Assembly: GCF_900129125.1 (NCBI RefSeq)
Contig: NZ_FQVJ01000010.1
Location: 1-64,000, forward strand
Source of the DNA: Acidocella aminolytica 101 = DSM 11237
Lineage (GTDB): Bacteria; Pseudomonadota; Alphaproteobacteria; Acetobacterales; Acetobacteraceae
Length of the DNA: 64,000 bases
Reading direction: 5' to 3'
Below the pieces are notes generated by a model that was not told the origin of the DNA, searched no databases, and saw nothing but the letters and a program-made list of their open reading frames with translations. The position numbers were made by a program, and so were the translations under genes. Positions 21,020 to 30,787 of the stretch are shown in pieces. Within the stretch, counting starts at the first letter, position 1, and each line of letters starts with the position of its first letter.

Positions 21020-21895
21020 TCAACGGGCGGGCTTGGGCGGGGTTGTGCTGTAATCATAAAAGCCGCGGCCGGATTTGCGGCCCAGCCAGCCTGCATTCAC
21101 ATATTTCACCAGCAACGGGGCAGGGCGGTATTTATCCTCGCCCAGCTCCTGATGTAGCACGCGCATGATGGAGAGCAGCGTATCCAGCCCGATAAAATCG
21201 GCCAGCGTTAGCGGGCCCATTGGGTGGTTAGCGCCCAGCTTCATCGCGTCGTCGATGGAGGTTACGTCCGCGACACCTTCTGCCAGAGCGAAGATAGCCT
21301 CGTTCAGCATCGGGCAGAGCAGGCGGTTGACGATGAAGCCCGGCGCATCCTGGGCGGTGGCGGAGGTTTTGTTCAGCTTACCCGCGAGCTCAGCGGCCGC
21401 CTGATAGGTGACGTCAGACGTGGCGAGGCCACGGATGATCTCCACCAGCTTCATCATCGGCACCGGGTTGAAGAAATGCAGCCCGATGAATTTTTCCGGT
21501 CGGCCGGACAGTGCCGCAAGCTCGGTGATGGAGATAGAGGAAGTGTTGGAGGCCAGAATGGTCTCCGGTGCCAGCACATCCTTCAGTTCTTTATAAATGC
21601 TCTCCTTGATTTCCAGCCTCTCGGGCACTGCCTCGATCACGATATCGGTGACCTTGAGCACATGGTAATCGGTGGAGGAGGTGAGGCGGCCAAGGGCCGC
21701 CGCCTTGTCTTCCGCCGTGAGGCTGCCCTTGGAGACTTGGCGGTCCATGTTTTTCTCGATGGTCGCCAGACCTTTTGTCAGGGCCGCCTCGAAGGCGTCC
21801 ACAAGCACCACGTCAAAACCAGAAATCAGCCCCGCGTGTGCGATGCCATTTCCCATCAAACCCGCGCCAATGACTCCGATTTTGCTGATGCTCAT
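21020..21895 (-). CDS. hbd: 3-hydroxybutyryl-CoA dehydrogenase
   Basis: This 291-residue NAD(P)-dependent enzyme interconverts 3-hydroxybutyryl-CoA and acetoacetyl-CoA. The Rossmann start [17 protein letters not shown], the [11 protein letters not shown] block following LASN, the catalytic His in [17 protein letters not shown], and the C-terminal [15 protein letters not shown] with the [11 protein letters not shown] ending are all present. It lies 2 bases downstream of etfA, so it belongs to the etfB-etfA-hbd operon. The pairing suggests short-chain acyl-CoA oxidation or PHB-related metabolism. Confidence 0.93.
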
Positions 21896-21897
21896 GA

Positions 21898-22827
21898 TTA
21901 CAGGGCCTTCTCCAGTTCAGGAAGTACGGTGAAGAGGTCACCGACCAGGCCGTAATCAGCCACCTGGAAAATCGGCGCGTCTTCATCCTTATTGATGGCT
22001 ACGATCACCTTGGAATCCTTCATGCCCGCCAGATGCTGGATGGCACCGGAGATCCCCACGGCGATATAAAGGTCAGGCGCCACGATCTTGCCAGTCTGGC
22101 CGACCTGGTAATCGTTCGGCACATAGCCAGCATCCACAGCGGCACGGGAGGCGCCAACAGCAGCCCCCAGCTTATCCGCAATCGGGTCAATCAGCTTGGT
22201 GAAATTCTCACCATTCTGCATCCCGCGCCCGCCGGAGATAATCACCCGTGCCGCGGTGAGTTCCGGACGCTCGGACTTGGAAATTTCCTCACCGACATAA
22301 GAGGACTTGCCCTCATTCGCGGCGGCGGCAACATTTTCGACGGCAGCCGAACCACCCTCGGCCGGGACCGGGTCGAAGGAGGAGGCGCGAACCGTCAGTA
22401 CCTTTTTCGCGTCGGCAGATTTCACCGTGGCCAACGCATTGCCCGCATAGATCGGGCGCACAAAGGTATCTGCATCCATCACGTCCGAAATATCGGAGAT
22501 TGGCTGGACATCCAGCAGTGCGGCGACGCGCGGCAGCACATTCTTGCCGGCGGCCGTGGCGGCCTGGAGAATGTGGCTGTACTGGCCCGCCACCGAGATG
22601 ATCAGCGCCGCCATCGGCTCGGCCAGATGATGCGCGTAGGCGGGGTCATCCGCCACCAACACCTTGGCCACGCCGGAAATTTTCGCGGCTTCCCCGACCA
22701 CGGCGCCAATGCCCTGGCCTGCCACCAGAACATGCACCTCGCCCAGCTTGGCTGCGGCGGCAATGGCGGAACGCGAAGGCTGCTTGATGCCAGAGGCGTC
22801 AAAATCGAGAACAACCAGAGCAGTCAT
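21898..22827 (-). CDS. etfA: Electron transfer flavoprotein, alpha subunit
   Basis: This 309-residue FAD-binding subunit takes electrons from acyl-CoA dehydrogenases to the quinone pool together with EtfB. The C-terminal FAD domain is intact: [62 protein letters not shown] (written here as family landmarks, about residues 195-270), then [12 protein letters not shown]. It follows etfB by 2 bases. Confidence 0.96.
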
Positions 22828-22829
22828 GG

Positions 22830-23579
22830 TCAGATCACCTTCGCTTCGTTGCGGAGTTTTTCGACGAGCGTCGCCACATCCGGCACCTTGATGCCAGCTT
22901 TGCGCGCCGACGGTTCATTGACATTGATCGTCGTCAAACGCGGCGTGACATCCACGTTAAGATCGGCGGGTTTGAGTGTGTCGATCGCCTTTTTACGAGC
23001 CTTCATGATGTTCGGCAGCGAGGCATAGCGCGGCTCGTTTAGGCGCAGATCGGCGGTGATAACGGCGGGCAGGCTCAGCTTCACCGTCTCCAGTCCACCA
23101 TCCACCTCACGGGTGACCGTGGCGGCCCCATCTGCGACCTCAACTTTGGAGGCAAAGGTGCCCTGCGGCCAGCCCAGCAGGGCGGCGAGCATCTGGCCGG
23201 TGGCGTTCATGTCGTCATCAATGGCCTGCTTGCCCAGAATGACCGCGTCAACCTCTTCCTTAAGCGCCACTTCCTTCAGAATTTTCGCCACGGCGAGCGG
23301 TTCCACCGCCACGTCGGTTTCTACCAGAATACCACGGTCGGCACCCATGGCGAGCCCGGTGCGGATGGTCTCCTGCGCCTGGGCCACGCCGATAGAGACC
23401 ACGATGATCTCACTCGCGACGCCTTTTTCTTTCAGGCGCACAGCTTCCTCGACGGCGATTTCATCGAACGGATTCATCGACATTTTAACGCCGGCGGTCT
23501 CAACGCCAGACTTGTCCGCTTTTACCCGGACTTTGACGTTGTAATCGACCACCCGCTTCACGGCGACCAGCAATTTCAT
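22830..23579 (-). CDS. etfB: Electron transfer flavoprotein, beta subunit
   Basis: This 249-residue protein is the AMP-binding partner of Etf[20 protein letters not shown] is the normal EtfB start, so ATG 23579 is chosen over an in-frame codon 54 bases upstream; AGAGG lies about 12 bases ahead. The recognition-loop region ends in [16 protein letters not shown], the EtfB signature. It is the first gene of the operon and is preceded at 76 bases by a perfect 24-bp palindrome that probably controls it. Confidence 0.95.
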
Positions 23580-23654
23580 GTTTACAAATACCTCTGTACT
23601 GACCCGGATTGGGGGGTGAGCCTTGATAGGCAATGCTCCGGCCCTTGGATAGTC

Positions 23655-23678
23655 TTTATTTACTCATGAGTAAATAAA
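23655..23678 (-). promoter_or_regulatory. Perfect 24-bp palindrome, likely operator of etfBA-hbd
   Basis: The half-site TTTATTTACTCA is followed directly by its exact reverse complement, without spacer. It begins 1-2 bases after the stop of the upstream aminotransferase gene and ends 76 bases before etfB. Size and symmetry fit a dimeric repressor such as a TetR-family fatty-acid regulator; no such gene is in the window. Confidence 0.7.
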
Positions 23679-23679
23679 C

Positions 23680-24840
23680 TCAAGAGAGGTGCTTTAACCG
23701 CGCCATCGCGTCCTTGATATCGGCCAGGGGGGCGCAATAGCTTAGCCGGAAATAGCGCGCGCCGCGCTCTGAATCGAAATCCAGCCCCGGCGTGGCAGCA
23801 ATATTCTGCTCCGCCAGCAACCGGTTGCAGAAGGCGACACTGTCCGCCGCACGGTCTTCGATATCGGCATAGACGTAAAACGCGCCGTCCGGCGGGGAGA
23901 AAGTCGGGAACCCGGCCGCGCGCAGGCCGTGCATCATCACCTCCCGCGCCTCTGCGTAAGTGGCGCGGTTGGCCTGCAATTCCTCATGGCAGTCCAAAGC
24001 CGCCTCCGCCGCAATCTGCGAGATATGGGAAGCGGAGATGAACAAGTTTTGTGCCAGCCGCTCGGTTATCCGTACCATGTCTTCCGGCAGTACCAGCCAG
24101 CCGATTCGCCAGCCGGTCATCGAAAAATATTTAGAAAAGGAGTTCACCACGATGGCGCTGTCAGAAAACTGCGCCGCGCTGGCCTGGGTCTTACCGTAAG
24201 TCAGGCCGTGGTAAATCTCGTCCGAGATCAGGCGGATACCGTTTGCATCGCAATAGCGGCACAGGGAGGCCAGCGCTTCGGGGGCGAGCATGGAGCCGGT
24301 GGGGTTGGCGGGGCTGGCGAGAATCAGCCCATCTGGTTTCTCCGGCAGGGCGTCCAGCATCTCGATGGTGGGTTGAAACCCGGTCTCGATCCCGCAGGGC
24401 AGCACCACGGGGTTCAGTCCGAGCGCCTTTAACGTGTTGAAATAAGGCGGGTAATAAGGCGAGGCGAGGGCCACCTTGTCGCCTTGGTCGAAGCTGGACA
24501 AAAACGCTAACGGAAACGCACCCGAAGCGCCGAAGGTCACGGCGATGCGGGTGGGAGAAACCTCCGCCCCATACCAGTCCGCGATATGCCGGGCGATGCG
24601 CGCCCGCAAGGCTGGGCGGCCAAGACCCTCCGTATAACCCAGCGCGTCACCGCTTTGCAGCGCGGCCTGCACCGCCGCTCTTGCGCCGTACGGCAGGCCA
24701 GTGCCGGGCTGGCCGACTTCCATCCGCAGGATTTTCGGTGCCTCTGGTGGCAATGTGGCGGCCCGCGCATTGGCGGTCTGGATCACATCCATCACCCTGA
24801 AGGGCGGTACAATCCGCCCCGCACCGGTCTTCAGAACCAA
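23680..24840 (-). CDS. Class I/II aminotransferase (aspartate aminotransferase-like)
   Basis: This 386-residue fold-type I PLP enzyme has the N-terminal VPPFRVMDVIQTANA block, the ASPANPTGSML pocket, SDEIYHGLTYG, the PLP lysine in NSFSKYFSMTGWRIGW, and the carboxylate-binding Arg in YFRLSYC. The start is TTG 24840, because the conserved N-terminal block begins upstream of the first ATG (Met17); the codon follows the preceding stop by 3 bases. The natural amino donor is not deducible. The stop abuts the etf palindrome. Confidence 0.85.
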   Translation of the reverse strand: MVLKTGAGRIVPPFRVMDVIQTANARAATLPPEAPKILRMEVGQPGTGLPYGARAAVQAALQSGDALGYTEGLGRPALRARIARHIADWYGAEVSPTRIAVTFGASGAFPLAFLSSFDQGDKVALASPYYPPYFNTLKALGLNPVVLPCGIETGFQPTIEMLDALPEKPDGLILASPANPTGSMLAPEALASLCRYCDANGIRLISDEIYHGLTYGKTQASAAQFSDSAIVVNSFSKYFSMTGWRIGWLVLPEDMVRITERLAQNLFISASHISQIAAEAALDCHEELQANRATYAEAREVMMHGLRAAGFPTFSPPDGAFYVYADIEDRAADSVAFCNRLLAEQNIAATPGLDFDSERGARYFRLSYCAPLADIKDAMARLKHLS

Positions 24841-30734: not shown

Positions 30735-30748
30735 AGTTTTTAAATTTT

Positions 30749-30780
30749 TCGTGAGAGCTTTTTGAAAAAAGCTCCCACGA
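30749..30780. terminator. Strong hairpin between cysQ and shc
   Basis: A 15-base stem (30749-30763 with 30766-30780) has a single A-C mismatch. It sits between convergent genes and so probably ends transcription from both sides, although neither side shows a clear T-tract after the stem. Confidence 0.5.
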
Positions 30781-30787
30781 AGTGCTT

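Follow-up and report, generated by a model that had tools for sequence, protein, structure and literature searches.

The window analyzed here, a stretch of 64,000 nucleotides from Acidocella aminolytica 101 = DSM 11237 (contig NZ_FQVJ01000010.1), carries on its minus strand an etfBA-hbd gene group, encoding both subunits of the electron transfer flavoprotein (ETF) and a 3-hydroxybutyryl-CoA dehydrogenase, which is preceded in the same orientation by a gene for a class I/II aminotransferase (Table 1). The 100-bp gap between aminotransferase and etfB genes (23580-23679, G+C content of 45% compared to 61.8% for the window) harbors the element in question, a palindrome of 24 bp that begins 1 base past the TGA stop codon of the aminotransferase gene and is separated by 75 bases from the etfB ATG (complement of 23577-23579), a distance given as 76 bases in a preceding sequence-only reading of this DNA. 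Judging from the genome comparisons described below, the palindrome is very probably the operator of a TetR-type regulator encoded elsewhere in the same genome. The closest named relative of EtfB is from an Acidocella metagenome-assembled genome (82%), several of the next ones being from Acetobacteraceae.

As the sequence-only reading had claimed, the palindrome is perfect, with two arms of 12 nt showing 100% complementarity and a spacer of zero (23655-23678). Among the zero-spacer perfect palindromes of the window, six have arms of 7 nt, five arms of 8 nt and one has arms of 12 nt, the latter being the longest and the sole one with arms exceeding 8 nt. The chance expectation for palindromes with arms of at least 12 nt is 0.007 in 64 kb and 0.43 in the whole genome of 3.96 Mb, and the largest arm obtained in 60 Markov resamplings was 11 nt. 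Accidental occurrence within the window is unlikely, and more so inside one 100-bp intergenic gap, while a single such palindrome anywhere in the whole genome would on its own be nothing unusual.

Table 1. Coordinates of the palindrome, the adjacent genes and promoter-like hexamers in the window, and of the tetR gene found elsewhere in the same genome.
Feature	Location	Strand	Basis or remark
Palindrome, 24 bp, proposed operator	23655..23678	no strand	letters TTTATTTACTCA/TGAGTAAATAAA
Conserved core TTTACTC-AT-GAGTAAA	23659..23674	no strand	alignment with etfB upstream regions of relatives
-35-like hexamer CTATCC	23647..23652	-	2 nt downstream of palindrome
-10-like hexamer CTATCA	23624..23629	-	17 nt past -35-like hexamer
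etfB, ETF beta subunit, 249 aa from ATG	22830..23579	-	PF01012
etfA, ETF alpha subunit	21898..22827	-	PF01012, PF00766
hbd, 3-hydroxybutyryl-CoA dehydrogenase	21020..21895	-	NF005715 above cut-off
Class I/II aminotransferase, upstream, co-directional with etfB	23680..24840	-	PF00155
tetR, 209 aa	contig G000:C65, locus L151, 5965-6594	-	TetR_N + TetR_C_24

For comparison, a genus set of 38 genomes was used, in which the genome of the window is G000. EtfB was detected in 36 of these genomes and 30 etfB upstream regions were inspected. The core with the consensus TTTACTC-NN-GAGTAAA is present ahead of etfB in six of the 30, own genome included, either in the full 24-bp form (G000 and G004) or as the shorter core (G011, G034, G023 and G029). 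Across these six, the center is AT, AC, GC or GT, and palindromic symmetry of the outer bases beyond the core is not maintained among the relatives. Fixed half-sites around a free center are the footprint expected from a protein dimer. G010, G012 and G033 cleanly lack some 14 bp exactly at the element, the flanks remaining aligned. Outside the genus set, none of 80 named etfB loci has the core at up to three mismatches in the 250 nt upstream (79 of 80 at full length). Palindromes of another type, TTGACGT..ACGTCAA, were seen in betaproteobacterial etfB upstream regions (L036, L054, L068, L069, L074, L075 and L081) and resemble the LiuR site.

In an alignment of 17 etfB upstream regions from the genus (the other 13 of the 30 being left out), 15 show CTTTCC or CTTTGC at the -35-like position and 15 show ATATCA at the -10-like position, 17 nt from the -35-like box. 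The arrangement CTTT(C/G)C-N17-ATATCA (23624-23652 of the window, minus strand) is kept ahead of etfB in much of the genus, even without the palindrome. As the -35-like box is retained in genomes lacking the palindrome, the latter sits just upstream of a separately kept box.

The exact core TTACTCNNGAGTAA occurs in nine of the 38 genus genomes, at one place each (reversed control pattern, 2/38), five times before etfB and four times in the gap separating tetR from a divergently oriented acyl-CoA dehydrogenase gene. The latter four genomes are G016, G022, G025 and G026 (the identity of the dehydrogenase beside tetR being confirmed by domain search in G016 alone). A search with the TetR encoded next to these sites revealed a close relative (E ≤ 2.5e-86) in ten of the 38 genomes, which are the nine genomes with exact TTACTCNNGAGTAA and G023, where the site ahead of etfB deviates at one base. 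With tetR as the gene compared, the 16-bp core at up to one mismatch is present in 10/10 genomes with close tetR, before etfB in six and between the acyl-CoA dehydrogenase gene and tetR in four, and in 0/28 of the others. A more distant tetR copy was found in G021 (E of 6.4e-64); the remaining matches have E values of about 1e-16 to 1e-17 or represent a second tetR in G023, a truncated fragment of 58 residues with 60% identity that lies close to the end of a contig (G023:C4:9492-9665). A one-mismatch match to the core in G029 (contig C12) coincides in part with the beginning of an HU-like gene and was attributed to chance. Since 10 of the 28 genomes without the core are less than 90% complete, single absences are weak; in G017, a near twin of G016 that is 82% complete, tetR was not found. 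In a tree built from EtfB and ETF-ubiquinone oxidoreductase (ETF-QO) of 30 genomes, six of the rows being EtfB alone, the six genomes with the etfB site lie inside one clade of ten (support of 98/95), and the remaining four members (G010, G012, G033 and G021) have neither site nor close tetR. The best tree requires two paired losses of site and close tetR, the forks within the clade being weakly supported.

The TetR protein of strain DSM 11237 scores 53.9 bits for the helix-turn-helix domain PF00440 (TetR_N, cut-off 24) and 84.3 bits for PF17932 (TetR_C_24, cut-off 26.4), and is 78% identical to its counterparts in G011 and G004, 82% in G023, 75% in G029 and 80% in G034 (partial copy). An AlphaFold2 model (pLDDT of 90.1) shows nine helices, and its top-ranked Foldseek matches are TetR regulators, with PfmR as the best PDB match, followed among others by DarR, AibR with isovaleryl-CoA, and KstR2. 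AibR from Myxococcus xanthus has been solved both with isovaleryl-CoA and with operator DNA, according to the PDB titles, and shares 26-27% identity with the model. For assignment to already named regulators, the NCBIfam model of Vibrio PsrA gave only 16.7 bits for the TetR of G016 (cut-off 300), the TetR from strain DSM 11237 not being among the matches listed, and Bacillus-type FadR (NF053878) reached 29.1 bits at a cut-off of 200.

The tetR gene in the genome of the window is divergent from two enoyl-CoA hydratase (ECH) genes across a gap of 35 to 80 bp, depending on start-codon choice, which contains TTTACTCAAGCGTAGC, one half-site of which is intact and the other degenerate. A dyad site next to the regulator's own gene is present as exact core in four genomes and in degenerate form in strain DSM 11237. 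An ECH pair is likewise divergent from tetR in G004, with TTTACTAACGCGTAGG in between, while elsewhere the divergent neighbor is a sugar-nucleotide-type gene (G011 and G023) or a glycosyltransferase-type gene (G029), as judged by eye. On the other side of the DSM 11237 gene, a long-chain acyl-CoA ligase-like open reading frame (ORF) and a major facilitator superfamily-type ORF were assigned by eye. In the same genome, TTTACTCATGGGTAGA, having two mismatches to the core, lies 44 nt ahead of the ETF-QO gene. G004 retains a three-mismatch form at this position, and the other 27 usable ETF-QO upstream regions of 30 inspected (G030 was excluded, its gene being cut at the start) show no match at up to three mismatches. 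The ETF-QO match is suggestive only, as it overlaps a TTTAC that is common in relatives and perhaps a -35 element. Further near-matches in the genome were attributed to chance, those on C35, C50, C82 and C107:78041 lying inside ORFs, and those on C19 (before an enolase-like gene), C42, C85 (before an integrase-like gene) and C89 having no beta-oxidation neighbor in the up to 3 kb inspected (gene types by eye).

Wider tetR searches yielded few matches, six at E ≤ 1e-40 family-wide (299 genomes) and 12 at E ≤ 1e-45 order-wide (395 genomes), own genus included. In G181 and G117, which belong to another genus (group g81), a TetR relative of 57-58% identity is encoded divergently from a thiolase-short-chain dehydrogenase/reductase-ECH-etfB-etfA operon, demonstrating direct adjacency of this TetR type to etfBA. 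The pattern TAC-N6-GTA, framed after most of the upstream regions had been viewed, occurs within -150 to +30 of tetR in 12 of 16 relatives at chance probabilities of 0.4-3.7% each; G034 is outside this count because its tetR is at a contig end. Besides, the TetR copy on G021:C66 (L157 102-9260; 54%) stands beside an aldehyde dehydrogenase-acyl-CoA dehydrogenase-ECH cluster, in the vicinity of another etfBA copy. Judged by eye, this arrangement resembles a cluster for valine-type degradation equipped with an ETF of its own.

The conserved core before etfB, its location in four genomes in the gap from tetR to the acyl-CoA dehydrogenase gene, the co-occurrence with tetR and the divergent arrangement in G181 and G117 all support what the sequence-only reading had put forward, a candidate operator of a dimeric regulator of acyl-CoA metabolism, very probably one of the TetR type. 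We estimate a probability of about 0.75 that etfBA-hbd is controlled through the palindrome by a TetR-type repressor of acyl-CoA oxidation, the release of which is brought about by an acyl-CoA. According to this model, the tetR product from contig C65 would act as a homodimer, each helix-turn-helix contacting one half-site TTTACTC and leaving the two central bases unread. The ligand-free dimer, placed just upstream of the -35-like element, would keep the etfBA-hbd promoter down; it would also act on the degenerate sequence in the gap shared by tetR and the two ECH genes, and possibly at the two-mismatch site ahead of ETF-QO. Accumulating acyl-CoA or enoyl-CoA might then occupy the helical C-terminal pocket and cause release of the dimer, thus raising the electron-exit capacity (ETF and ETF-QO) along with beta-oxidation. 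Binding, repression rather than activation, and the acyl-CoA ligand are predictions. When a TetR regulator and a divergent neighbor are separated by less than 200 bp, the neighbor is mostly repressed (PMC3511530), and this rule together with the match of the structural model to PfmR, AibR and KstR2 favors repression with acyl-CoA release.

Several observations weigh against this interpretation. The regulator's own promoter in strain DSM 11237 carries only the degenerate copy, the four genomes with the exact core at tetR (G016, G022, G025 and G026) lack such a palindrome ahead of etfB, and the ETF-QO site at up to three mismatches was found in only two of the six close-tetR genomes inspected. 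TAC-N6-GTA was not found before tetR in G023, G021, G075 and G128. Within the genome of the window, core matches at up to two mismatches are hardly enriched (four versus three for the control) and a looser pattern is even less frequent than its control (10 versus 20). The sequence-only reading had named the lack of both further genomic copies and conservation before etfB as evidence that would speak against an operator; the former is the case, a second 24-mer copy within three mismatches being absent, but conservation before etfB was established in six genomes. Moreover, few independent evolutionary events stand behind the co-occurrence. An independent-pairs sign test with two informative pairs is not significant (p of 0.5), and because of these few pairs the naive value of 2e-9 for the one-to-one pattern should not be used.

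The position upstream of the -35-like element still allows activation, and the same TetR bound to the same operator might activate or only tune etfBA via contact with RNA polymerase. The palindrome is followed after 2 nt by the conserved -35-like hexamer, and its center would fall near position -50, given a transcription start estimated to lie about 7 nt past the -10-like hexamer. This would suit such a role, but a good candidate for the tetR promoter in G016 (TTGAGT-N16-TATACT, by eye) overlaps with the core, and we regard this variant as rather unlikely. Still less probable is binding of another dimeric regulator, with the tetR link as a by-product of shared ancestry. The few independent events and the merely degenerate copy at the own tetR promoter would agree with it, whereas the exact core in the tetR promoter of four genomes argues for TetR itself, as does the fact that tetR and etfB site are both kept although the divergent neighbor of tetR varies among the etfB-site genomes.

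Explanations without a DNA-binding protein are very improbable. An RNA hairpin terminating the aminotransferase transcript would fit the start immediately behind the stop codon and the ability to pair, but was rejected as a terminator scan gave no site at 23655-23678, the stem is A+T-rich and not followed by a T run, and the fold z-score is just -1.54 (14 of 200 shuffles being equally good); besides, the core is also located between divergent genes in four genomes. For a functionless chance palindrome or relic, to which we ascribe an equally small probability, the genome-wide expectation given above can be invoked, against which stands a conserved core with free center in six genomes that is missing where close tetR is missing.

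A TetR repressor with a palindromic operator is an already known kind of switch, of which the regulator-operator pair described here is a new example. PfmR (TTHB023) from Thermus thermophilus represents the nearest solved structure by sequence and fold, albeit at only 28-29% identity. For PfmR, a 16-bp palindromic site of the same A(A/C)Y-N4-R(g/t)T build is described, with the consensus (a/c)Y(g/t)A(A/C)YGryCR(g/t)T(c/a)R(g/t) and sites mapped to fatty-acid gene promoters, but with G/C beside the center instead of C/G as in the present core and with different outer bases (PMC7022988). The DSM 11237 protein was not classified as a PfmR orthologue by its operator, since positions 1, 7, 10 and 16 of TTTACTCNNGAGTAAA misfit this consensus (by eye). 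FadR (TTHA0101) from T. thermophilus is likewise a TetR-type protein with a palindromic site, and its candidate operons include TTHA1144-1146, comprising an acyl-CoA dehydrogenase-type gene, etfB and etfA; its site TTRNACYNRGTNYAA, however, has 15 bp with a one-base center, compared to TTTACTC-NN-GAGTAAA here (PMC5597230). FadRSa from Sulfolobus acidocaldarius is also a TetR repressor, encoded in a beta-oxidation cluster and having a dyad motif of 16 bp that occurs at four sites in the genome, but it is archaeal (PMC6449355). In Proteobacteria, FadP, LiuQ, PsrA and LiuR regulate the breakdown of fatty acids or branched-chain amino acids, of which FadP and LiuQ occurred only in betaproteobacteria within the genome set of the cited study and LiuR is of the MerR type (PMC5343134). 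Among the best matches listed from open-licence literature, neither a described regulator of acyl-CoA oxidation in Acidocella-like Acetobacteraceae nor the present pair was found, and the pair proposed here is directly testable for this role. Its best site is located ahead of etfB in one clade of the genus and ahead of an acyl-CoA dehydrogenase operon in another, and site and tetR gene are missing jointly, which makes it a compact case of regulon rewiring.

A more far-reaching idea, which we consider doubtful, is that of a lineage-specific TetR with its strongest genomic site at etfBA, the electron exit shared by the acyl-CoA dehydrogenases (perhaps also at ETF-QO, in two genomes) and not at its own gene, the best target differing between clades, i.e., acyl-CoA dehydrogenase operon versus etfBA. 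If true, it would be the outlet for respiratory electrons, and not a single degradation pathway, that TetR adjusts to the level of acyl-CoA.

Elsewhere in the window, at 30748-30781, an inverted repeat with arms of 16 nt (94% complementary, 2 nt apart) shows T5/A5 runs at its center.
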